Assembly (NCBI GenBank): GCA_964007475.1
Contig: CAXFZM010000180.1
Location: 1-64,000 of the forward strand
Direction: 5' to 3'
Origin: Hybos culiciformis
Lineage: Eukaryota > Arthropoda > Insecta > Diptera > Hybotidae
Length of the DNA: 64,000 nucleotides
Part shown: positions 6,390 through 60,955 of the stretch, one piece after another
Numbering within the stretch: the stretch's first letter is position 1
Layout: each line of letters starts with the position of its first letter
Program-made: the position numbers and the translations under genes
Notes under the pieces: generated by a model
What the model saw: the letters and a program-made list of their open reading frames with translations, nothing else
The model's database searches: none
What the model was told of the DNA's origin: nothing

Positions 6390-7126
6390 GATGGAAATAA
6401 GGCCGCAGGAAATAAGGCCGCGACGTTTTTTTGTTGCGGTCTTATTTCATTTTGAAAAATGAAATAAGGCCGCGAAGATTTTTTCGCGGCCTTATTTCGT
6501 TTTTCAAAATGAAATAAGGCCGCGAAAAAATCCTCGCGGTCTTATTTCATTTTGAAAAATGAAATAAGACCGCAAAAAATTCCTCGCGGCCTTATTTCGT
6601 TTTGAAAAATGAAATAAGGCCGCGACAAAAAAAAACAATTATTCGGAGGGCTAATTTCATTTTTATAAACGAAATAAGGCCGCGTAATCTTGTGAGGTGA
6701 GCACACAGGGCAGGGGGCAGCAGGGCGGCGGGCGGGCGGTTGGTCAGTGGGATTTGCGGCGCAAATCCCACTGACCAACCGCCCGCCCGCCGCCCTGCTG
6801 CCCCCTGCCCTGTGTGCTCACCTCACAAGATTACGCGGCCTTATTTCGTTTATAAAAATGAAATAAGGCCGCGAAAAAATCCTCGCGGCCTTATTTCATT
6901 TTTCAAAATGAAATTAGGCCTCCGATTAATTTTTTTTTTGTCGCGGTCTTATTTCATTTTTCAAAACGAAATAAGGCCGCGAGGAATTTTATGCGGTCTT
7001 ATTTCATTTTTCAAAATGAAATAAGACCGCGAGGATTTTTTCGCGGCCTTATTTCATTTTTCAAAATGAAATAAGACCGCAACAAAAAACCTATCGCGGC
7101 CTTATTTCCCGCGGCCTTATTTCACT
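6390..7126. repeat. ~735-bp near-perfect palindrome built of smaller palindromes
   Basis: The symmetry centre is base 6759, within gatttgcggcgcaaatc, with no loop. Arms of about 365 bp are nearly perfectly complementary. Each arm is a series of units of the form gcggccttatttcatttt followed by its own inverse, plus a GC-rich central 80 bp. Because the arms mirror each other, both strands show the same spurious open frame starting MVSGIC. The class is unknown; it behaves like a foldback element. It is far richer in GC than its surroundings. Confidence 0.9.
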
Positions 7127-7480: not shown

Positions 7481-9203
7481 TTATTTGCTATGGAAATTTT
7501 CCATACATTCGGGACAAACTGGTTCTTGACATTTGCCACAAATATATCGAGTTCGACGTCTACACAAGAGATCATGACATCTTGGGGCTGATTTAGCTAC
7601 AACCTTTTTTGGATAGTGTTTATTTTCATCAAAACGAACCCGAGAAATTTGGTATTCGTGAGAAGTTTTGACCTTTTTTGGCGGAGGCGTTTTTTGAGAA
7701 ACATTTCCTATTTTTATTAGTTCATAAGCTAGCTTTGCTTTAAAATTTAAAAGTGGTACATCTTCAATAACTTTTCTATAGCAAATCCAAGAATTTACCA
7801 CAGACATATTCACAAGATGAAAAAATACTCTCAAGTACCATTTTTTAGATTTGAAACCGTGAGGATAGTGCGCTATCATTCGATCCATCAAGTCGACCCC
7901 TCCCATGAAATTATTATACTGTTGTATAATGTAGGGTCTGGTAATTTGGGTGATTACTTTATTTTTACGATCCATCGCCTAACATTATCTTCAGGGTATT
8001 TCCCAGCGAATGTTGAAGCCACATGCACCTCATTATTATCCTTCCATCTCAAAATTGTTATATTATCTGAAGAAGTTGTATAGGAACTTTCTCCTCTTTC
8101 CATTTTCTTACCTGACTTCAATTTCGCTTGAGCTTTTGAAGCTCTATTCATTCGTATGGTTCCAATGACATATATTTCTTTTTTTTGTAGATATCTCATA
8201 AGAGGCAGGCTTGTAAAAAGATTGTCTATATATAATTTGAAATTTTTTCCTTCCATATCATGACAAAGACGTACAACAGTGTCTCCAATTGGACCCAACA
8301 CAGCCTTGTTGACATCTTTACCCTGATAAAATTCAAAGCAATGGACATAACCATCTGCACTTGCTCGAACCCAAATTTTGAATCCCCACGGTTTCGGTTT
8401 ATTTCTAATATACTGTTTCATCGTGCTTCGACCTTTAAATGGTACGATCATTTCATCAACTGCTTGCATCTCAGGTGGAAGTCTCAAATTGTGAAAGCTT
8501 TCATGAAGAGCTGTTATAATCGGTCGTAATTTCCAAAATTTATCATTAGGCAAATGTTCTGATTCATTGTCAACAAAAAAAAAAAAAAAATTTCTTCGAA
8601 GCGATTTATTGACATATTGTCAGCTATAAGATCCATGCGCAAGGATGGGTTTGAAGACCAGTACATTCTTGTTTGAGGGTATTTTATATAAGTCATTATA
8701 ATATTGATTCCAAAATATATAAATAATTCTTTGGTAGTAACAACAAAATTAATTTTTCCGTTTTGATGAGCGAATCGAATGGTTTCAAATTGAATTTGCT
8801 CGAATAACTGTTTCGGAAACATTTGAAAGAAATAGTCAATTGGATCGCAGCCGTCTAATAAAATTAATTCTACACCTTTAAAAGGAGGTGGATTACTAGA
8901 ATGCATATTGTCTTTACCAGTATACCAAATTTCACGACGGTTGTTTTCTAAAACAGAATAATCTGGAACTATTTCATTTGCGGTATCTGGAACTACACTA
9001 GATTCCGTTTTATTTATGATATCTGGAACTATACTGGATTCTATTTCATTTACGACATCAATCGATTGATTTTCTCGGTTTTTTGAAAAAAATTCTTCCT
9101 CGAAATCCGAGCCAGAATCACAAGAAAAGTCTGCATCAGAATCTGATGGAAAATCCTCTAAAAGTCTTGCAATTTCTTCATTTGTTAGTCCTTTACGTGA
9201 CAT
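7481..9203 (-). pseudogene. piggyBac transposase, two frameshifts
   Basis: Three overlapping frames make up one piggyBac-type transposase (DDE_Tnp_1_7 family), which cuts and pastes at TTAA. The N-terminal frame (9203 to about 8580) has the usual acidic leader and the fold preceding the core. The middle frame (to about 7960) carries AVDEMIVPFKGR and YIDNLFTSLPL, and the last frame carries MGGVDLMDRM, so the expected catalytic aspartates are all present. The C-terminus is a cysteine-rich zinc-binding tail (CRRRTRYICGKCQEPVCPEC). One frame break lies in the A run near 8577-8590, the other near 7965. About 570 residues in total, a normal family length. It cannot make full-length protein as sequenced; both breaks could be checked as assembly errors. 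Confidence 0.9.
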
Positions 9204-10095
9204 CTGAAAATATATCGCAAATGCATGTTGTCACATTTGATGCCACTAAACAAATTATATTTTTTTCCCTAAAAACTCTCAAATTTTGCCAGAACTTTGA
9301 GTTAGTAACAAAATTTGAAAATTAAATTTTTCAAAAAAAAATTTTACTAACCTTTCAGACAAAAATTTCAATAAAAAAAATAATTTTTAAATTTTTTCAA
9401 AACACAAAATTTTTTTTCTCGTTTTCTGATTTTTTTTCAAACAAAATCCATAAACTACTATAGTATAAACGATCGGTAGACATCTTACAGAAAAAAAGAA
9501 AAGCTAAATAAGGGTTACCGCTTTGCTAAAATCATAAATCCCAGTTGGAATTTAAATTGTATTCAAATTACTTAAGTGGCATCATTTGTGTTCAAATGCG
9601 AGAAGAGGTAATATATATTTAGAAAAAATTCATTAATTATTGTGTCATTATAATTAACAAGTTGTTATTAAGATAAAATAAAAAATGTAAAATTTGACAA
9701 TTTTTGTTTGTTCTTTTTTTCATTTTCACATTTTGCCACCACAAGTTCGTTAATATAGAATAGATATTGTTTTGTCGTATTTTTTTTTTTTTTAAATAAA
9801 ATTTTTTGATTTGTTTTTGCTTTTTGACTGGCAAAAATATTGTTTTTTGTTATTTGTCTAAAGTCAAGCCATGGTGTGAAAACTTTATTTAATATAAAAA
9901 ATATTTCAATGCTGCATTCGCCACATTCACAAAGTCTATTCGCCACATGTGGCGAGTGGCGACTGTGTTGGACATCACTGATCTAATAAATTTGATGCTG
10001 GAATTCAATAATTCAGTTTGTTTATTTTAAAATGGTAAGCTTGCGATTTCGTATTTTGTATTTTCGTATTTGGTATTTTGTATTTCGTATTTTGT

Positions 10096-12231: not shown

Positions 12232-14518
12232 ATGCTTTCGGTGATGATGACAGAATAATTTGCGACAAAACTTTTGTGGACAATTTTGCACAAAGCGCTA
12301 AATCTTTAGACATTATTCTACATCTTAAATCAAATGAAGAAAAATGGTCTTATATTCCTGTTCAAAAAGATGGCTCAAAATGTTTTACATTTAAGGTAAG
12401 ATCATCTGAAGCTGCTCTTTATGTTTCTCTGGCAAATCAAAAAGGAGATAAATATGGAAATATAATATTTGCGAAATTACCACAAGGTCAATCAGATGGA
12501 TTTAGAATTTATGATTATAATGAAGATGAGGATGTTCTTGAGACCTCATCTGACCATTATCTGCAATCCTATGATTATAGAACCTATTGGTTGGATTGGA
12601 CCAATAATATTCTCCAAATAGGTGCACTTTATAATAACTCAACTGATTCATTAGAAGAGTCAGACAAACCTGATAATTTAACAATTATGGAATATAAATT
12701 CGAATCTAAACTAGAAATAACTGATGTGGGACTAAAAACGGAATCCGGAGATGGAAATTATTGTTTTAAGTAAGTGATCTTGAGATTTTTTTACATTTTT
12801 ATCGTATAAAAAATTCTGTTTGAAGTGTTGAAACCGATTTCCTCCAGTTTTAACTCTTAAGATTTTTATTTATTCTCAATGAAAAAAAATATTCATTCGT
12901 TCTCTTTAGGAATTAATTTTATTAACATACTTCTTTATGTATTGTGATTAAAATAATTTTAGATTTTCTTTTTATTGTTTCACTACACTACCCCATTGAA
13001 TGATTTTCTTTAATATCTTTGAATATTTACGATCGATCGTAAATATTCAAAGATATTAACAAAAAAACAGACGTTAATTATTAAATCAATAATTTGTGGA
13101 CAAAAGATCGGTAATTGTCCAATTTGATAATTTCTTAACTTCAAAAAATTCACTCCTGGTTGGTAATACGAATAGAAAATTATTCCTGACGGTTTCCAAA
13201 TGTGTGAACATAATAATATTTCAAAAACATAGACTCACAACCTAGAGTCAATTTTGAAATACATAATACAAAAAAAGTTCTCATATGGCATTTGTCGGAA
13301 AATGAAACGCAATAATACCACTCAAGATTAGAATAGGAGAAATAAAAATAAGAAATTTAACAAAAAAATAATAATTGAATAGAGATTTCAAAAATTCATA
13401 AAGTTAATAATACAATTAATATATGAGGAATTTGATATTCAATTTATATCCAGAAATAAAACCTCACAGAACCAAAAAATAAAAAATCTTCATGCAATTT
13501 AAATAAAAATAAATTGTATAACATTCATCTCTAGAATTGTAAATGATAGGTATCAAGTAAATCATTCTGATGAGTCCTAAGCTTGATACCAGGACGAAAC
13601 AATTCAAAAAAATTTAGTAATTTTCAAATTATTAAGTTTCCTAGATAAAAAATATTAAAAATACAATTTTCAGTTTACTTCACCATCTACTTAAAGAAAT
13701 CATGTCTGTAAAATCGATCGTAAATATTCAAAGATATTAACAAAAAAACAGACGTTAATTATTAAATCAAGATTTTCTTTAATGTTTTTCATATAATAAT
13801 ACATATTAATTACATAAATTCAAAAACTTGAGTAAATATTTTTATTTTTTTATGATGATGTAAATTTTTATAAGAACTAGATAAGATGTAATTTCAATTA
13901 CTCCATTATTCAAATGGAATTGTTTATCGCATTAGTGGAAAAATGCTTCAAACATTTCCAGGAAAAAGTATATGAGTTGATTGGTACTTGTAATCTTGAT
14001 TATTTAGGAATATGTTAATTGTGGTTATTTAATTTCTTTATATTTCAATAAATTTTTTTTAATGATAATATTTAAAATTATTTTCAGCCAAACAAGAATG
14101 TCCAGGACTCATAACAATTGACCAACCAACCAACCATACAACCGATTTCAAATGTGAAAAATTGAATATAAGCTTGTCAGAAACGGAGTTAGAAATAATT
14201 TTAGACAAGAAAAAAATAATTATAAAAGAAATTGAATCTGACTCTGAAGCTTTAAAAAGTTTTGGGGAAGAAGTTTCAAAATACGTGGTGAAGGCATTGT
14301 TGCTCAATTTAATAAGATTATATGAAGATGCTGAGAATCTTCACAAAGAGTTTTTATTTTTAACACTTGAAACTGCAAAAGAGGAATCCGATAATTTCCA
14401 AGAAATAAAACTACATTACTACAATTTAATGAATGATTTAGGAAAATATATTGATGACAATCCGGAAATTGAGAAATTTTTTAAAATTATTAAATCGAAA
14501 GGAACACCAACATTGTAA
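12232..14518 (+). CDS. Methyltransf_FA-domain gene, paralogue 1 (5' exon missing)
   Basis: Exon 12232-12769 follows a clear acceptor (tttttttacag) and ends at a GTAAGT donor. It encodes a Methyltransf_FA (farnesoic acid O-methyltransferase-type) domain: WSYIP near residue 39, FTFKVRSSEAALYVSL, then YWLDWTNNILQIG near residues 120-130. A cysteine (IICDK) precedes it, matching the second paralogue. Exon 14088-14518 follows ttttcag and encodes CPGLITIDQ and a charged helical tail ending GTPTL. The first exon ends in phase 2 but the second needs phase 1, so the obvious join shifts frame; a weaker GT at 12763 would restore it. No signal-peptide exon was found upstream, where element A lies. The domain name comes from crustacean enzymes, but methyltransferase activity in insect homologues is doubtful. 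Likely secreted by analogy with paralogue 2. The intron is split by a ribozyme repeat. Confidence 0.65.
13015..13770 (+). mobile_element. hammerhead-ribozyme repeat, single insertion in an intron
   Basis: This stretch is the 681-683-bp unit found in tandem at 48289-51454, here as 1.08 units: about 55 bases are repeated at its two ends. The 13-bp direct repeat gattttctttaat is exact at 13002-13014 and 13771-13783. The first 20 bases are an inverted copy of unit sequence, forming a palindromic start around gatcgatc. It contains one complete hammerhead (13534-13605) in the same orientation as the host gene. It differs from array units by short A-run length changes. Confidence 0.9.
13534..13605 (+). 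ncRNA. type III hammerhead ribozyme, intronic copy
   Basis: Helix III gaattg/caattc plus U-A, cleavage triplet GUA (after 13541), helix I aatgat/atcatt, core ctgatga, helix II gtcct/aggac, then gaaa. Same sequence as the five array copies. Loop 1 ggtatcaag is complementary to loop 2 cttgatacc. Confidence 0.9.
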
Positions 14519-25224: not shown

Positions 25225-26400
25225 CAAAATAGGTAGTTCAATAATAATTTGTTATTTATAAAAACAAAATAATTTGGCGCGAAAAATTTAAATTCAAATT
25301 AATTTTAAAAATCTTTCGTTTACAAATTATTTAAAACTAAATTTATTTTTCCAAAATAGGTAGCTCCGTTAAAATAAAGATTAACTGCCGAAAAATTTTT
25401 GAGCAGGGAACTACGTTTAGGGTCTTCCCGGGTCAAAATATGGAAAAAAACATTTTTTTCAAAATAGGTAGCTTCGGTGAAATAAAGATTACCTGACCAA
25501 AAATTTTGGGTAGGGAGCTACGGTTAGGGTCGTCTCGGCTCAAAATTTACAAAAAAAAATTGTTTTCAAAACAGGTAGCTCCGGTAAAATTAATATTACC
25601 TACCGAAAGGTAGGGATCTACGGTTAGGTCGTGCCGGCGCAAAATATACGAAAATTTTGTTTTTTTTTTTAAATAGGTAGCTCCGGTGAAATTAATATTA
25701 CCTGAAAAAAATTTTTGGGTGGGGAGCTACGGTTAGGTCGTGCCGGAGCAAAATATACGAAAATTTTGTTTTTTTTTTAAATAGGTAGCTCCGGTGAAAT
25801 TAATATTAACTGAAAAAAATTTTGGGTGGGGAGCTACTGTTAGGTCGTGCCGGAGCAAAATACACAAAAAAAAATTTTTCCGAAATAGGTAGCATCGGTG
25901 AAATAAAGATTACCTGCCGAAAAATTGTTGGGCAGTGAGGTACGGTTAGGTCGTGCCGACGCAAAATGTACAAAAAAATTTTTTTTAAATAGGTAGCTCC
26001 GGTGAAATTAATATTACCTGAAAAAAAAATTTCGGGTGGGGAGTTACGGTTAGGTCGTGCCGGAGCAAAATATACGAAAACATTTTTTTTTTAAATAGGT
26101 GGCTCCGGTGAAATTAATATTACCTGCAAAAAAATTTTTGGGTAGGGAGCTACGGTTAGGTCGTGCCGGAGCAAAATTTACGAAAAAAAATTTTTTTTTA
26201 AATAGGTAGCTCCGGTGAAATTAAGATTACCAGCCGAAAAATTTTTGGGTAGGGAGCTACGGTTAGGTCGTGCTGTCGCAAAATACACAAAAAAATTTTT
26301 GCCGAAATAGGTAGCTTCGGTGAAATAAAGATTACCTGGCGAAAAATTTTTGGGTAGGGAGGTACGGTTAGGTCGTGCCGGCGCAAAATATACAAAAAAA
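25225..26400. repeat. tandem array of ~105-bp units
   Basis: About eleven units, each starting ataggtagctccggtgaaat and containing gggagctacggttaggtcgt and gtgccggagcaaaatatac. Starts are near 25230, 25357, 25464, 25571, 25674, 25781, 25886, 25989, 26096, 26204 and 26307. The first units are the most diverged. Open frames here are by-products of periodicity. Confidence 0.9.
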
Positions 26401-26494
26401 ACACGAAGCAGTCATAGAACTGCCGACAGAAGTTTATACTTTTTAAATCTTTTAAGTATAAACTTATGTCGGAAGTTCTATGACTGCTTCGTGT
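26401..26494. repeat. 94-bp hairpin closing the satellite array
   Basis: acacgaagcagtcatagaac is mirrored by gttctatgactgcttcgtgt around 26447, nearly perfect for about 40 bp per arm, enclosing agtttatact-type sequence. The same motif stands alone at 47262-47312, so it is probably a terminus of a dispersed family. Confidence 0.85.
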
Positions 26495-42099: not shown

Positions 42100-42639
42100 T
42101 TTTAGTGCATATATATTCATAAAATGAGATTAGATTTAAATTTATTTTCAAGGCATAAAATAAAAAATGGTTTCAAATACAGGAAGAAGGTAGGAACATA
42201 TTTACAAGTACAGGAAGAAGGTAGGAACATATTAACAGAAGTACCCAGGTAGAAAAACAGCCACGTGAGTGCAGTTGACGTCCACAAGTTCGATTTTTCC
42301 GAAACTTGGTGGAGAGTAGAGGGCGGTTCTACAGTCGAATAATAATTTATGCAAAAGAATTCGGTGTGATGTTTTGTTGACAATTTTTCTTTGCCTTGAA
42401 TTCTGCTCCAACAACCACTGATTGCACGCACGCACGCTTAGCGTCTTGCGGCACACAAATTGATATCATTTCTTTTGTGTGATGAATTGAATTGTGTACG
42501 CAGCTTGCGTCACGAGTTTTAACTGCGCCAAGAAGTGTTTTTAGTTGATATAACTATTTTTCGAAGGTAAATGAATATATAAAAATATTTCGAAAAAACT
42601 TGACATTTAGGGAGACATTTGGAAATTTTGGGTAATTTT
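42100..42639. other. unassigned stretch before a minisatellite
   Basis: It holds a 30-bp tandem duplication (acaggaagaaggtaggaaca, 42178-42237) and a cacgcacgcacgct run near 42426. The minus-strand frames here carry no recognisable domain. Confidence 0.5.
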
Positions 42640-43110
42640 TTTGATTTTGGAACATTTTTGATTTTGGGACATATGTGGATTTTGGAACATTTTTAATTTT
42701 GGGACATATTTGGATTTTGGAACATTTTTGATTTTGGGACATTTTTGATTTTGGGACATTTTTGATTTTGGGACATTTTTTGATTTTGGGACATATTTGG
42801 ATTTTGGGACATTTTTGATTTTGGGACATTTTTGATTTTGGCAATTTTTATGATTTTGGGACATATTTGGATTTTGGGACATTTTTGATTTGGGACATTT
42901 TTGATTTTGGGATATTTTTTGATTTTGGGACATATTTGGATTTTGGGACATTTTTGATTTTGGGACATTTTTGATTTTGGGACATTTTTGATTTTGGGAC
43001 ATTTTTGATTTTAGGACATTTCTTGATTTTGGGACATTTCTTGATTTTGAGACATTTTTGATTTTGGGACAATTAGGATTTTGGGACGTTTTAATTTGGG
43101 ACATTTTTGG
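42640..43110. repeat. ~16-bp minisatellite (ttttgattttgggaca)
   Basis: About 28 copies with point variants, chiefly atttttgattttgggac and catatttggattttggg. All three minus-strand frames stay open as KCPKIKN-type repeats because the unit lacks stops; this is not a protein gene. Confidence 0.95.
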
Positions 43111-47312: not shown

Positions 47313-47401
47313 AACTATGAAATAACAATGGTAACAAATAATGGACTGCTTTTGGACTGATGGACTGATTTTTATTTTAATTTACATTTTGTACTGAGCA
47401 G

Positions 47402-47634
47402 CCCTCAATTCTACCCTCACTTCCGCCCTCACTTCAGCCCTCACTTCCGCCCTCATTTCCGCCCTCACTTCCGCCCTCACTTCAGCCCTCACTTCAGCCC
47501 TCACTTCCGCCCTCATTTCCGCCCTCACTTCCGCCCTCACTTCCGCCCTCACTTCCGCCCTAACTTCCACCCTCACTTCCGCCCTCACTTCCGCCCTCAC
47601 CTCCGCCCTCACTTCCGCCCTCACTTCCGCCTCA
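47402..47634. repeat. 12-bp minisatellite (ccctcacttccg)
   Basis: About 19 copies of ccctcacttccg with a few point variants. The minus strand reads as (RAEV)n, the result of an in-frame 12-bp period. Confidence 0.96.
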
Positions 47635-48109: not shown

Positions 48110-48288
48110 AAATTGATGTTTATTCTTTAAATGTCAAAACATGTCTCGTTCACTTTCACTTCAACAAAAATTTGAGATTCTATCATTTGGGATTTCGGAG
48201 TTAGCTTTTCTCAATGTCAACTTCTCAAGGATTTAAATAATTTTCATTAAAATTTTTATAAATTTCAAATTTAATAAAGTTTAATTGA
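48110..48288. repeat. left flank of the ribozyme array, related to 18.1 kb
   Basis: Matches the reverse complement of about 18109-18240, including gattctatcatttgggattt. It ends with the target duplication aaagtttaattga (48276-48288). Confidence 0.75.
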
Positions 48289-48482
48289 TTTAATAATTAA
48301 CGTCTGTTTTTTTGTTAATATCTTTGAATATTTACGATCGATTTTACAGACATGATTTCTTTAAGTAGATGGTGAAGTAAACTGAAAATTGTATTTTTTA
48401 ATATTTTTTATCTAGGAAACTTAATAATTTGAAAATTACTAAATTTTTTTGAATTGTTTCGTCCTGGTATAAAGCATCTCTA

Positions 48483-48554
48483 GAATTGTAAATGATAGGT
48501 ATCAAGTAAATCATTCTGATGAGTCCTAAGCTTGATACCAGGACGAAACAATTC
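48483..48554 (+). ncRNA. type III hammerhead ribozyme, array copy 1
   Basis: Helix III gaattg (48483-48488)/caattc (48549-48554) plus U48489-A48548; cleavage after A48490; helix I aatgat (48491-48496)/atcatt (48510-48515); core ctgatga (48516-48522); helix II gtcct (48523-48527)/aggac (48540-48544); gaaa (48545-48548). Loop 1 ggtatcaag (48498-48506) is the exact complement of loop 2 cttgatacc (48531-48539). Confidence 0.95.
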
Positions 48555-49204
48555 AAAAAAATTTAGTAATTTTCAAATTATTAAGTTTCCTAGATAAAAA
48601 ATATTAAAAAATACAATTTTCAGTTTACTTCACCATCTACTTAAAGAAATCATGTCTGTAAAATCGATCGTAAATATTCAAAGATATTAACAAAAAAACA
48701 GACGTTAATTATTAAATCAATAATTTGTGGACAAAAGATCGGTAATTGTCCAATTTGATAATTTCTTAACTTCAAAAAATTCACTCCTGGTTGGTAATAC
48801 GAATAGAAAATTATTCCTGACGGTTTCCAAATGTGTGAACATAATAATATTTCAAAAAACATAGACTCACAACCTAGAGTCAATTTTGAAATACATAATA
48901 CAAAAAAAGTTCTCATATGGCATTTGTCGGAAAATGAAACGCAATAATACCACTCAAGATTAGAATAGGAGAAATAAAAATAAGAAATTTAACAAAAAAA
49001 AAAAAAAAAAAAAAACAAAAAAAAAAAAAAAAAAAAAAATAATAATTGAATAGAGATTTCAAAAATTCATAAAGTTAATAATACAATTAATATATGAGGA
49101 ATTTGATATTCAATTTATATCCAGAAATAAAACCTCACAGAACCAAAAAATAAAAAATCTTCATGCAATTTAAATAAAAATAAATTGTATAACATTCATC
49201 TCTA

Positions 49205-49276
49205 GAATTGTAAATGATAGGTATCAAGTAAATCATTCTGATGAGTCCTAAGCTTGATACCAGGACGAAACAATTC
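49205..49276 (+). ncRNA. type III hammerhead ribozyme, array copy 2
   Basis: Identical to copy 1, offset 722 bp because of the A-run expansion in between. Predicted cut after 49212. Confidence 0.95.
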
Positions 49277-49887
49277 AAAAAAATTTAGTAATTTTCAAAT
49301 TATTAAGTTTCCTAGATAAAAAATATTAAAAAATACAATTTTCAGTTTACTTCACCATCTACTTAAAGAAATCATGTCTGTAAAATCGATCGTAAATATT
49401 CAAAGATATTAACAAAAAAACAGACGTTAATTATTAAATCAATAATTTGTGGACAAAAGATCGGTAATTGTCCAATTTGATAATTTCTTAACTTCAAAAA
49501 ATTCACTCCTGGTTGGTAATACGAATAGAAAATTATTCCTGACGGTTTCCAAATGTGTGAACATAATAATATTTCAAAAAACATAGACTCACAACCTAGA
49601 GTCAATTTTGAAATACATAATACAAAAAAAGTTCTCATATGGCATTTGTCGGAAAATGAAACGCAATAATACCACTCAAGATTAGAATAGGAGAAATAAA
49701 AATAAGAAATTTAACAAAAAAATAATAATTGAATAGAGATTTCAAAAATTCATAAAGTTAATAATACAATTAATATATGAGGAATTTGATATTCAATTTA
49801 TATCCAGAAATAAAACCTCACAGAACCAAAAAATAAAAAATCTTCATGCAATTTAAATAAAAATAAATTGTATAACATTCATCTCTA

Positions 49888-49959
49888 GAATTGTAAATGA
49901 TAGGTATCAAGTAAATCATTCTGATGAGTCCTAAGCTTGATACCAGGACGAAACAATTC
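49888..49959 (+). ncRNA. type III hammerhead ribozyme, array copy 3
   Basis: Identical to copy 1, 683 bp after copy 2. Predicted cut after 49895. Confidence 0.95.
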
Positions 49960-50570
49960 AAAAAAATTTAGTAATTTTCAAATTATTAAGTTTCCTAGAT
50001 AAAAAATATTAAAAAATACAATTTTCAGTTTACTTCACCATCTACTTAAAGAAATCATGTCTGTAAAATCGATCGTAAATATTCAAAGATATTAACAAAA
50101 AAACAGACGTTAATTATTAAATCAATAATTTGTGGACAAAAGATCGGTAATTGTCCAATTTGATAATTTCTTAACTTCAAAAAATTCACTCCTGGTTGGT
50201 AATACGAATAGAAAATTATTCCTGACGGTTTCCAAATGTGTGAACATAATAATATTTCAAAAAACATAGACTCACAACCTAGAGTCAATTTTGAAATACA
50301 TAATACAAAAAAAGTTCTCATATGGCATTTGTCGGAAAATGAAACGCAATAATACCACTCAAGATTAGAATAGGAGAAATAAAAATAAGAAATTTAACAA
50401 AAAAATAATAATTGAATAGAGATTTCAAAAATTCATAAAGTTAATAATACAATTAATATATGAGGAATTTGATATTCAATTTATATCCAGAAATAAAACC
50501 TCACAGAACCAAAAAATAAAAAATCTTCATGCAATTTAAATAAAAATAAATTGTATAACATTCATCTCTA

Positions 50571-50642
50571 GAATTGTAAATGATAGGTATCAAGTAAATC
50601 ATTCTGATGAGTCCTAAGCTTGATACCAGGACGAAACAATTC
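50571..50642 (+). ncRNA. type III hammerhead ribozyme, array copy 4
   Basis: Identical to copy 1, 683 bp after copy 3. Predicted cut after 50578. Confidence 0.95.
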
Positions 50643-51253
50643 AAAAAAATTTAGTAATTTTCAAATTATTAAGTTTCCTAGATAAAAAATATTAAAAAAT
50701 ACAATTTTCAGTTTACTTCACCATCTACTTAAAGAAATCATGTCTGTAAAATCGATCGTAAATATTCAAAGATATTAACAAAAAAACAGACGTTAATTAT
50801 TAAATCAATAATTTGTGGACAAAAGATCGGTAATTGTCCAATTTGATAATTTCTTAACTTCAAAAAATTCACTCCTGGTTGGTAATACGAATAGAAAATT
50901 ATTCCTGACGGTTTCCAAATGTGTGAACATAATAATATTTCAAAAAACATAGACTCACAACCTAGAGTCAATTTTGAAATACATAATACAAAAAAAGTTC
51001 TCATATGGCATTTGTCGGAAAATGAAACGCAATAATACCACTCAAGATTAGAATAGGAGAAATAAAAATAAGAAATTTAACAAAAAAATAATAATTGAAT
51101 AGAGATTTCAAAAATTCATAAAGTTAATAATACAATTAATATATGAGGAATTTGATATTCAATTTATATCCAGAAATAAAACCTCACAGAACCAAAAAAT
51201 AAAAAATCTTCATGCAATTTAAATAAAAATAAATTGTATAACATTCATCTCTA

Positions 51254-51325
51254 GAATTGTAAATGATAGGTATCAAGTAAATCATTCTGATGAGTCCTAA
51301 GCTTGATACCAGGACGAAACAATTC
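51254..51325 (+). ncRNA. type III hammerhead ribozyme, array copy 5
   Basis: Identical to copy 1, 683 bp after copy 4. Predicted cut after 51261. The last partial unit ends about 130 bp further on. Confidence 0.95.
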
Positions 51326-51454
51326 AAAAAAATTTAGTAATTTTCAAATTATTAAGTTTCCTAGATAAAAAATATTAAAAAATACAATTTTCAGTTTACT
51401 TCACCATCTACTTAAAGAAATCATGTCTGTAAAATCGATCGTAAATATTCAAAG

Positions 51455-51780
51455 AAAGTTTAATTGAATTCTGATTCGAATAAGTATAAACTATTTGGGT
51501 AGATAGAGGTCGATAAGCGGAACATAGTCAGAGCTCAAGGATTCGTACTAGGGTTTAGATTTCGATGAAAACTGTAAATTACATGGTTTAAAATGATTTC
51601 TACCAAGAATAATTGTATTGGGTGGATTAATGTCGATTAGAGGAACAAAAAAAATGTTTAGAGCCCAAGGACTCGGATTAAAGTTTGATTGAAAATATTT
51701 ATATGTGTACATATGTATGAAAGTTTTTTGTCCTAAATCGAAATGCTGAAAACGGACCCCTTACTAAATTTCTGATGCAC
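51455..51780. repeat. right flank of the ribozyme array, degenerate repeat family
   Basis: Starts with the second copy of the target duplication, then two diverged copies of the family seen at 17806-18560 (gagctcaaggattcg near 51530; gagcccaaggactcg near 51660). Confidence 0.7.
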
Positions 51781-58884: not shown

Positions 58885-60955
58885 TATTTTTTTATTTTAT
58901 TTATATATATTAGTATACGAGATACTTTATTTACAAAATTTTACAATTTATTTATCTTTTATTTTATTTTATTTTATTTTTATTTTTTTTCGACTAAGCT
59001 CTATCTATTTTTAATAAAAATTACGCAATTCCTTTTAAATCTAGAAAACTGGTGTTCTTTTTTAATATAATTAGGTTAAGTGTTGAATAATTGTAGACCC
59101 CTGTAGAAGAAGGAATTCTGAGCTGCAGTTGTTTTTTGGATTTGTATTCTAAAATTGCCCACGTTCCTCAATCGATAAGGTTGCACCTCTTCCACATAAT
59201 TAATATGTTGCTTTAAATAATCTGGTGTCATTCCATTTTTTATTTTGAAAACGAAAACTAATGAATTACACTCTAACCGCTGACGTATATCCAGCCATTT
59301 CAAACTTTCCAGCATAAAACTAATTGGTGTGAGATTACCACATCCCAGTATACATCTCACCACTTTGTTTTGGAGTTTCTGAAATCTATCTATTTGGCCT
59401 TGGTTGCAACAAGAAAAAAGTATAGATGAGCAGTACTCAAAATGTGGTTTTATTATTACATTGTATATGTTTACAGCTGTTATTCTGTCTATTTTACACC
59501 TTATTCTTCTTAAGAAACCGATCTTCTTCCCTATCTTTTTACATATGTAATCAACGTCTCCATTTAATTGAATATCTGAACTATTATTTATTTCCATCAT
59601 TTTAGTTTTTTTCTCGTTTAGTTTAAGTTTATTCATGTTTAACCATTTAATTATTCCATTCATATCGCTCATAATTTTACTTATACATTCATCTTCATCA
59701 TTACCTTCTGCATAAATTAAAGTATCATCTGCATAAAATATGTATTTACATTTTCTTATTACCTCAGGCATATCGTTTATGTAAATAATAAAAAACAAGG
59801 CTCCTAGAATTGATCCTTGAGGAACGCCGCATTGAACAACTTCTGGATCCGAAAGATTGTTGTTGACCTTGGTTCGCTGGGTCCTATTAGATAAGTAGTT
59901 CGAAAACCATTTCAGTTCATTATCCTCAATTCCATAACATTTCAACTTCCTTAACAATATATTCCTGTCGATTGTTTCAAATGCCCTTTCAAAGCCTAAG
60001 AAAAGAGCAATTATTTTTTTTGTTCTCCTTTACATTTACATTTATTTACAATATAATTCACCGCTGTTTCAGATGAATATTTCTTCCTAAACCCTGATTG
60101 AAAATGTGACAGAATTTTATTTTCCTCAATATATTTTTCTAGCTGTTCTTTTACGACCTTTTCTAATATTTTTTCAAGAGTTTGCAATGAATTTAAGGGT
60201 CTGAACTATTCACATTTTTTAGTTTTTGGAACTTTTTCAACCGGTGATATAATAGATTCTTTCCATACTTCTGGGAATTCCCCGGTTGTTATAGATTTAT
60301 TGATTATGTTAAGCAGCCTTGGCCCAAGAAAAACCCAGTTATCTAGGATCATTTTAGGGTTTATTTTATCATTATCTGACTTATTTTTTAGTGATTTGCA
60401 TACAGCTTTTAGTTTATTCAGACTAATTTCTGCAAATTTGAATTTGCATTGCATTTGATTTGTATGGTTATTATAAGGTACAATTTCGATTGATCCTCTA
60501 ATTTCTTCCACACTATTTATTAAGTATTTGTTAAAGTTATTTGCTATATCTAAATTATTTTCACATTCGTTTCCTTTAAATATTACACTCTGGATTACAC
60601 TTTTCTCTTGTTTTAGTACCAAAATTTTTTATTTCTCTCCACATTTCTTTTTGTCCATTTGCTTTATTAATTTTATCGGAAATGTAATTATTTTTTGAAT
60701 TTTTTACTTTTAAATTATATTGATTTCTGATAATTTTGTACTGATTCCACGTTTCTCGAGTTTTAATTAATCGCGCTATGTTATATTTCTGTATTTTATT
60801 TGCTTTTAGTATTCTTAGTTCATTGCTAAACCATTTATTAGTTTATTATCACAATTAATTTCTTTTTTATAAGTAAATTTATTTACGGTATTGTTCAAAT
60901 GACAGACCAAAAAACTCTGCACTTAAATTAATATCACAAGTGGAATCTCTTAATT
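58885..60955 (-). pseudogene. non-LTR retrotransposon with reverse transcriptase, 5'-truncated and frameshifted
   Basis: Reading the minus strand from about 60955: the linker after a lost endonuclease (KWFSNELRILKANKIQKYN, WNQYKIIRNQYN), then RT segments with SIISPVEKVPKTKKCE, LEKILEKVVKEQLEKYIEEN and FQSGFRKKYSSETAVNYIV. After a break near 60020 a 293-residue frame (59957-59076) carries GVPQGSILGALFFIIYINDM and the catalytic YADD box, followed by thumb and C-terminal blocks. The order fits the CR1/jockey group. At least two further interruptions (a TGA after KKCE, frame breaks near 60840) make it inactive. The 3' side ends in A-rich, AATAAA-type sequence near 58885-58990. It lies inside the unassigned transposon, downstream of its gene. 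Confidence 0.9.

Follow-up and report, generated by a model that had tools for sequence, protein, structure and literature searches.

Tandem units with type III hammerhead motifs in the fly Hybos culiciformis: a probable retrozyme and its candidate Penelope-like (PLE) helper

Type III hammerhead ribozymes are known mostly from plants. The genome of the dipteran Hybos culiciformis contains tandem units that each bear such a motif, and the locus raises the question of what kind of element this is and by what route it has been copied. The window considered here is a stretch of 64,000 nucleotides (contig CAXFZM010000180.1, forward strand), for which an initial annotation had described 683-bp tandem repeats, five of them with a complete type III hammerhead. 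The hammerheads were borne out: all five are present and identical across the 72-nt ribozyme. The repeat length holds for the second to fourth hammerhead spacings (683 each), but the first is 722, and of a fifth unit there are just 209 nt. The units are indeed arrayed in tandem, but as one insertion of a dispersed mobile element with an inverted arm, a 13-bp duplication and stereotyped ends, and not as a satellite.

The array and its hammerhead motifs

The array (element A) is a single insertion composed of an inverted left arm of 192 nt, about 4.3 direct units and a 13-bp target-site duplication. Its parts are as follows, unit 3 being the reference for every unit coordinate in this text.

48276 to 48288, no strand: left 13-bp target-site duplication, AAAGTTTAATTGA
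48284 to 48475, minus strand: inverted left arm, unit 246 to 55, head-to-head with the array; 192 nt, 99% complementary, 1 mismatch against its own array
48476 to 49197, plus strand: unit 1, 722 nt, with an expanded poly-A run
49198 to 49880, plus strand: unit 2, 683 nt, 100% identical to units 3 and 4
49881 to 50563, plus strand: unit 3, 683 nt
50564 to 51246, plus strand: unit 4, 683 nt
51247 to 51455, plus strand: partial unit 5 (unit 1-209), 209 nt, its right end at start site 1
51455 to 51467, no strand: right copy of the 13-bp target-site duplication, AAAGTTTAATTGA

The first hammerhead spacing is 722 and not 683 because the poly-A run is longer in unit 1. The unit has a GC content of 0.24 and is non-coding, the longest stop-to-stop stretches being 46 codons forward and 112 codons in reverse, and a tRNA search at the element found none. 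A match to MIR1509 in the window proved to be merely the hairpin formed by the inverted arm. The five hammerheads span 48483 to 51325:

48483 to 48554, plus strand: type III hammerhead, predicted cut between 48490 and 48491
49205 to 49276, plus strand: type III hammerhead, predicted cut between 49212 and 49213
49888 to 49959, plus strand: type III hammerhead, predicted cut between 49895 and 49896
50571 to 50642, plus strand: type III hammerhead, predicted cut between 50578 and 50579
51254 to 51325, plus strand: type III hammerhead, predicted cut between 51261 and 51262

Each copy is laid out as GAATTGT-A / AATGAT..ATCATT / CTGATGA / GTCCT..AGGAC / GAA / ACAATTC. The 15-nt conserved core is complete and is surrounded by helices I (6 bp), II (5 bp) and III (7 bp including U16.1-A15.1); helices I and II are capped and helix III is open, which is the type III topology, and cleavage is predicted directly after GUA. 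A descriptor scan (three helices, types I and III only, both strands, composed after the motif was known) found six motifs in the window and none in 40 first-order Markov resamplings of it. Loops I and II are complementary over 9 nt (GGTATCAAG / CTTGATACC), a length reached by 3 of 20000 loop shuffles, and the same letters build a competing hairpin. This long hairpin is the predicted minimum-energy fold, at -20.8 kcal/mol against -10.0 for the hammerhead with the pseudoknot energy left out.

The covariance-model match above threshold whose absence the initial annotation had named as a refutation was not obtained: Rfam 15 gave nothing at the gathering threshold in the window, and RF00008 at E 0.001 matched nowhere in the genome, in a search that was also silent in all 14 control genomes. 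The best relaxed hammerhead match in the window (Hammerhead_1, 17.9 bits, E 1.2) threads the wrong topology. We judge the absence of a match non-decisive because core, three helices and topology are all present, and because a hammerhead with loops of 12-13 nt is, in our estimation, probably poorly represented in the Rfam models. Covariation lends the motif no support, since the young copies are identical and the old ones have decayed.

Insertions, ends and unit identity

A second insertion in the window, element B (13004-13776), bears a sixth type III hammerhead.

13002 to 13014, no strand: left target-site duplication, GATTTTCTTTAAT, overlapping the first bases of the arm
13004 to 13037, minus strand: inverted arm, unit 221 to 188; 2 mismatches in 34 nt against its own array
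13032 to 13776, plus strand: direct part, unit 188-683 and then 1-251
13534 to 13605, plus strand: type III hammerhead, predicted cut between 13541 and 13542
13771 to 13783, no strand: right target-site duplication

The two open frames that flank element B may be exons of one Methyltransf_FA-type gene, the domain in this host gene scoring 24.4 bits against a cut-off of 24.2. The inverted arm, the 13-bp duplication, the loop complementarity and this sixth hammerhead are features that the initial annotation did not contain.

Across the genome there are 59 exact hammerhead cores and at least 117 unit matches. Among 52 mapped 3' ends at 38 loci, 49 fall at two adjacent sites, and the stretch between these corresponds to an optional 'tail'; the same positions are found in unit 3 of the window.

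50087 to 50103, plus strand: start site 1 (unit 207-223), 27 of the 52 mapped 3' ends
50117 to 50132, plus strand: start site 2 (unit 237-252), 22 of the 52 mapped 3' ends

The three outlying ends lie at a contig edge (L050), in a distant fragment (L069) and at an internal deletion whose flank carries the site 2 sequence (L036). At 12 of the 13 two-armed loci, and at all 10 of the first set, the two ends are divided between the start sites, and an exact 13-bp target-site duplication is present in eight of the 13, namely element A and seven others; at the two-armed locus L076 both ends are at site 1 and there is no duplication. When the flanks of the first 21 loci were compared, a closeness score of 8 was passed by 12 of 21, as against 5 of 420 mismatched flank pairs. 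These counts exclude L050 from the two-armed loci and the fragment C2:39998517 from the mapped ones, and they include both L074 and L075, apparently copies of one insertion; L039, a segmental duplicate of L038, was kept in the 21-locus set and in the unit comparison and dropped from the 3'-end, two-armed and private-substitution counts. The marks of mobilisation in the style of a Penelope-like element (PLE) are present: a head-to-head arm, a tail at one end (12 of 13 loci) and a target-site duplication (exactly 13 bp in 8 of 13). The direct part starts at unit 1-5 in the window array and at L037, L045 and L072.

The 22 units of six insertions contain a single internal substitution, found in L049 (2 units), and none in L032 (3 units), L038 (6), L046 (2), L050 (5) or the window array (4), while insertions differ from one another by 0.7-8.6%; the units are 670-722 bp long. 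Among the substitutions private to an insertion, 15 are common to all of its units and one is not. Between the units of one insertion only the length of the A-run varies. Inverted arms agree with their own arrays, with no mismatch in five of ten insertions, one in three and two in two (aligned parts, length changes ignored). Because units are identical inside each insertion, the genomic pattern favours a monomeric RNA intermediate, which would most simply be circular.

A start region shared with a PLE

A GIY-YIG profile search of the genome gave 51 matches over the cut-off, among them three nearly identical PLE arrays in which an 849-aa frame repeats at exactly 3587 bp. Retrozyme unit 167-281 aligns to the start of this PLE with 72.5% identity over 120 nt (49.1 bits, a score reached by none of 200 resampled units). 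Both PLE right ends examined, which belong to two arrays on C1 out of the three arrays, lie at a site homologous to the retrozyme ends. Of two loci on C328, the contig of the third array, that do not cover its right end, L055 gave no match and L056 matched over 44 nt at a contig end. The start of a control PLE, L058, has no match to the retrozyme start region; it is the one clean control, as among the control loci L057, L058 and L059 only L058 clearly covers the start of the reading frame.

A stem-loop is predicted around the start of reverse transcription, and the other full units have it at the corresponding position:

50057 to 50110, plus strand: predicted stem-loop, unit 177-230 (AUGUCUGU / ACAGACGU)

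Its outer stem is predicted in 14 of 14 sequence variants, chosen for having both stem halves. With the upstream GTCTG half included, the stem lies 0.6-1.6 SD below the energies of crude Markov resamplings, which is weak evidence, and a 51-nt fold of the start region alone gave no signal.

The GIY-YIG assignment of the putative helper rests on a partial profile match in the 849-aa frame (profile 2-43 of 78, 28.3 bits) together with the domain content of its relatives. A Pfam scan of the whole protein found neither GIY-YIG nor RVT_1, even at E 5, and comparison with solved structures returned non-significant matches only. Relatives number 751 among 7997 proteins scored, the best with 46% identity over 99%, and the best 120 of these 751 have PLE-type domain sets, mostly RVT_1 and some with GIY-YIG across almost the entire alignment, as in P0033 (38% over 98%). 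Named PLE relatives include those of ants and a wasp. The candidate helper also looks, by eye, as if it carries a type I motif, whose topology would differ from that of the retrozyme; Rfam does not recognise it.

Route of copying and relation to known elements

Taken together, the element is probably a non-autonomous retroelement of the retrozyme kind, mobilised by a PLE and copied in laps from an RNA circle made by its hammerhead. From the directly observed motif, ends, arms, 13-bp duplication, unit identity and shared start region we infer cleavage, circularity, the number of laps and the use of the 849-aa PLE as follows. Multimeric transcripts of an array would cut themselves at the type III hammerheads and the 683-nt monomer would be closed into a circle; that self-cut monomers of this length could circularise is a sensible model. 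The helper protein would bind the RNA at the start region that the retrozyme has in common with the PLE's own RNA, cut the target with a 13-bp stagger, and use both cut strands as primers, with reverse transcription beginning at start site 1 from one strand and at start site 2 from the other. One polymerase could then run several laps of the circle and leave identical direct units, while the second would yield the short inverted arm, and the two cDNAs would be joined head to head.

We lean narrowly towards the full form of this model, in which the insertions were left behind by rolling-circle target-primed reverse transcription: one PLE complex would use both strands of a 13-bp cut, two adjacent sites and a single hammerhead-made circle for several laps (six full units in L038). 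Work on the anole PLE has parallels: the purified enzyme is reported to cut and extend both target strands and to start internally within an AC-rich stem loop, at two neighbouring sites that delimit a 'tail' (PMC11167929).

The same work provides an argument for a fairly unlikely alternative, that the PLE enzyme copies an uncut array transcript, a linear multimer, for which the hammerhead is dispensable. According to PMC11167929, hammerhead cleavage is unnecessary for insertion of the anole element in vitro, hammerhead mutants insert like the wild type, and the main template is uncut RNA. In H. culiciformis, moreover, the predicted cut (unit 13-19) coincides with none of 24 outer 5' ends, the closest being unit 21 in L040, though some of the 24 are not true insertion ends, as the boundaries of L031, L036, L043 and L069 take in neighbouring or distant fragments. 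This argues that cut linear monomers are not the template, and the lowest-energy fold, which differs from the hammerhead, points the same way as the anole results. Copying of an array would, however, carry over differences between its units, yet all private substitutions but one are uniform; that A-run length varies among units and substitutions hardly do fits repeated passes over one monomer. A vestigial hammerhead, whose sequence is right but which is not active in the cell, so that the element now spreads without cutting, is also unlikely. The competing hairpin, the weak Rfam scores and the core or helix changes in several diverged copies would agree with such decay, and 14 of 38 loci have no intact core, part of it missing in some and core letters altered in others. 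Against this, the exact 34-nt core is present in all multi-unit, least diverged insertions, and the core-and-helix-II pattern is intact at 24 of 38 loci, a count biased as a measure of constraint because the first 21 loci were selected by the core.

Origins outside retrotransposition fare worse. Ordinary satellite DNA that unequal crossing-over or gene conversion has homogenised would also offer identical tandem units, with the hammerhead a passenger, and newts and cave crickets are known to have hammerhead satellite DNAs (PMC6155905). The ends and duplications nevertheless speak against a satellite as the main origin, which we regard as very unlikely: the copies lie dispersed as insertions that end preferentially at two sites and carry inverted arms and 13-bp duplications, and crossing-over would not keep the arms uniform with their arrays at 0-2 mismatches. 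Units may nonetheless have been homogenised locally once inserted. Amplification at the DNA level without reverse transcription, by a helitron-like or extrachromosomal rolling circle, would suit the tandem units and the little coding capacity, but its probability is close to negligible, as two-site inverted arms, 13-bp duplications and a PLE-shared start region are not known to mark those pathways. Preferred ends, duplications and arms led us to drop LTR, satellite and helitron-like readings alike.

Among known systems, metazoan non-LTR retrozymes are the nearest in form. For these, Cervera and de la Pena (2020, PMC7229834) describe type I motifs and a unit size of about 150-450 bp; the initial annotation's remark that animal hammerheads are mostly type I and short is in agreement. 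PLEs are put forward there as strong candidate helpers, on shared features and co-occurrence, and circles as templates. The element described here is like them in its non-coding, low-GC tandem units with a hammerhead per unit, and in target-site duplications of more than 4 bp when present; it differs in its type III motif, its units of 670-722 bp and a specific helper indicated by sequence. Plant LTR retrozymes have type III hammerheads and a comparable unit size of 600-1000 bp, but are reported with LTRs that carry PBS/PPT, 4-bp duplications and GC above 55% (PMC7229834, PMC7761336), as opposed to the 13-bp duplications, 24% GC and inverted arms found here. PLEs offer the head-to-head arm, an optional tail of 30-40 nt at one end, tandem copies, duplications and a start stem loop (PMC3846280, PMC11167929), yet they encode an enzyme and carry minimal type I hammerheads, in contrast to the non-coding type III retrozyme. 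Type III motifs have been noted in termite genomes, as isolated motifs, and in flies, a Drosophila pseudoobscura motif being cited; like the hammerheads of HDV-like agents, these show loop I-loop II base pairing in animals, but they have a longer helix I with an internal loop, and the account of them in PMC7936874 describes no mobile element. Unpublished insect elements with type III motifs are alluded to in PMC7761336. The novelty that the initial annotation saw in the type III unit is therefore narrower than proposed: against these sources, what looks new is an animal retrozyme that has a type III motif and for which a helper is indicated.

The finding touches on two open questions: the means by which animal retrozymes move, and the reason that PLEs have a hammerhead, a motif whose role in them a review calls unknown (PMC7761336). 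A recently active retrozyme is found here in one genome alongside a PLE that has a long open frame, and since the two have start region and end positions in common, the helper question becomes directly testable. Identity from lap to lap is in itself a genomic test for circular templates that is applicable to any retrozyme or PLE. If the motif of the helper is type I, the topology of the hammerhead would not be fixed by the helper. If the rolling-circle reading is true, the nearly identical 3587-bp PLE arrays would arise in like manner, and the role of the hammerhead in PLE-type retroelements would be to make the circular template.

The hammerhead and its insertions in the window

The genome comprises 342 Mb, with three very long contigs of 152, 106 and 48 Mb, and the window, part of contig C164, contains two insertions of the same retrozyme, elements A and B, among the following features.

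48276-51467: element A, one insertion, flanked at both ends by the 13-bp duplication AAAGTTTAATTGA
48284-48475: inverted arm of element A, 192 nt
13004-13776: element B, between two open frames, with its own 13-bp duplication GATTTTCTTTAAT
6436-7108: two tandem blocks of 50-bp palindrome-like units (GCGGCCTTATTTC...)
7481-9230, minus strand: open frames that overlap one another in different frames; one of them has a piggyBac-type transposase domain (PF13843)
25346-26401: minisatellite, 107 bp x10
42638-43109: minisatellite, 17 bp x27
47401-47631: minisatellite, 12 bp x19
59076-60029, minus strand: reverse transcriptase domain (RVT_1) in an open frame of another retroelement

The inverted arm of element A is followed by direct units of 722, 683, 683, 683 and 209 nt, of which units 2-4 are identical to one another and unit 1 deviates in having an extended poly-A run. 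In two insertions (window 48994-49039 and unit 1 of locus L050) the unit copied last exceeds the others by about 33-39 nt, and in the window this extra length stems from the longer poly-A run. The first open frame flanking element B carries a borderline Methyltransf_FA domain; the 23-bp sequence GCTCAGAGGGAAAATATAGATTA, which stands in two tandem copies (95% match) at each of 11406, 19760 and 23172, suggests that the region around this gene exists in duplicated copies.

A 72-nt type III hammerhead is present in each unit of element A. The initial annotation of a complete type III hammerhead per repeat was borne out by a motif scan requiring the core, three helices and U16.1-A15.1, which found six motifs and no others in the window and none in 40 resampled windows, and genome-wide there are 59 exact copies of the 34-nt core versus zero of a reversed control. 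The covariance-model check proposed in that annotation was run, and Rfam did not call the hammerhead in these units; the family search likewise gave zero matches in all 14 control genomes. Loops I and II could pair over 9 nt, and PMC3088659 predicts this type of contact in about 40% of hammerheads; the same loop letters could form a long hairpin whose predicted energy lies 10.8 kcal/mol below that of the hammerhead counted without the pseudoknot. Weighing the scan, the core count and the loop pairing with the Rfam miss and the competing hairpin, we take sequence and topology to show a real hammerhead, whose ribozyme activity is predicted.

Insertion ends and the template of each insertion

The retrozyme unit has at least 117 matches in the genome (40 of 253 candidates scored). 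Twenty regions covering the exact-core places outside the window and 17 of the further match places were taken; together with elements A and B these gave 38 mapped loci, L039 being left out as a segmental duplicate of L038. This six-unit insertion occurs twice within G000:C1:85073500-85116500, about 34 kb apart, and since the printed flanks are the same, a duplication of the DNA around it probably followed the insertion.

In coordinates of the 683-nt reference unit (unit 3 of element A, 49881-50563), 27 of the 52 3' ends in the 38 loci fall at 207-223 (site 1) and 22 at 237-252 (site 2), the three outliers being a contig edge, a distant fragment and an internal deletion. There are 3' ends on both sides in 14 loci, including L050, which is truncated by a contig edge; in 12 of the other 13 each site supplies one end, the sole exception being L076, where both ends are at site 1. 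A duplication of exactly 13 bp flanks eight of these 13 (L032, L035, L044, L045, L046, L071, A and B) and one of 14 bp flanks L034, its length is ambiguous in the low-complexity flanks of L038, L049 and L073, and none was found at L076. Where a locus has just one 3' end, a duplication is mostly absent, a match of at least 13 bp being seen in 4 of 24 (L047, where it is mostly T, L074, L075 and L078). Among the first 21 loci, L039 included, the duplication score was reached by 12 real flank pairs and by 5 of 420 mismatched pairs.

Units of different insertions differ by 0.7-8.6% and form two subfamilies. Within insertions (22 units in six multi-unit insertions, L039 left out) there were no substitutions in five and one in the sixth; 15 private substitutions were common to all units of their own insertion and one was not. 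Compared with the array of the same insertion, the inverted arm had 0-2 mismatches across the aligned stretch in all ten cases tested, length changes set aside. From this identity and the arm match, every insertion seems to derive from a single monomer. A cut linear monomer is disfavoured as that template, none of the 24 outer 5' ends lying at the hammerhead cut; the simplest single-monomer source of head-to-tail units is a circular monomer copied over several laps, with slippage in A runs altering unit length between laps. Four direct parts (L037, L045, L072 and window 48476) start at unit 1-5, just 5' of hammerhead helix III, possibly where reverse transcriptase stopped at the folded ribozyme.

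A candidate helper element

A GIY-YIG search of the genome gave 51 matches, among them an 849-aa frame of a Penelope-like element (PLE), the proposed helper, spaced at exactly 3587 bp in three arrays.

C1 near 54.47 Mb: three frames
C1 near 138.48 Mb: two frames
C328: three frames

The protein, 844 aa counted from the ATG at L051:1299, had no Pfam match at E 0.001 (at E 5, one unrelated weak match) and no significant match among solved structures. Of 7997 proteins scored, 751 were relatives, the best with 46% identity over 99%; of the 120 relatives listed, most have domains of the reverse transcriptase, PF28514 and PF26215 types, and some GIY-YIG. Within the first array, counted against unit 1, unit 2 has one difference in 3587, unit 3 has four plus an insert of 269 bp, and the final partial unit has five substitutions and four gaps in 397; in the second, two units were seen without differences and the last partial unit has one difference in 388. 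Full units are identical between the two loci. Such near-identity within and across arrays indicates a recently active PLE.

Retrozyme unit 167-281, the stretch containing both start sites, matches the PLE at L051:1208-1324, just ahead of its reading frame, at 72.5%; this is the sole strong match and exceeds those of all 200 resampled units. By alignment, the right ends of the two C1 arrays (L052, L054) lie at the position homologous to site 1. The start of L058 (C1:54357500-54358900), a separate PLE, had no match to the retrozyme; this element carries a hammerhead-like motif of minimal form, and a stem of its own (AAAGTCT / AGACTTT) can be made out by eye at the equivalent position. The CTGATGA motif of the helper, which Rfam did not detect, appears by eye to be a minimal type I hammerhead like that of PLEs, with one additional base before helix II.

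Relation to published systems

In the anole PLE, as reported in PMC11167929, both strands are cut and extended by the purified protein, which favours ATT within AT-rich DNA and starts at two adjacent sites inside an AC-rich stem loop; the stretch between these sites makes up the 30-40 nt PLE tail. Since its hammerhead mutants insert unimpaired in vitro (PMC11167929), cutting as a required step would be disfavoured. The rotifer Penelope (PMC3846280) resembles the retrozyme in its inverted arm, its tail on one inverted copy and its duplications, which are 8-10 bp rather than 13 bp. For retrozymes, a 2020 paper suggested that circles serve as the templates and that PLEs act as the helpers (PMC7229834). 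The present element works like a metazoan retrozyme, but lacks the published type I hammerhead and 150-450 bp unit.

The type III unit had been put forward as new. Type III hammerheads are already known from insect genomes (PMC7936874), and unpublished insect elements are alluded to (PMC7761336). What looks new is a type III hammerhead in an animal retrozyme, none being found described among the top-ranked open-licence PMC papers. What is added to published work is the sequence link to one PLE, the end positions, the test of unit identity and the type III topology.
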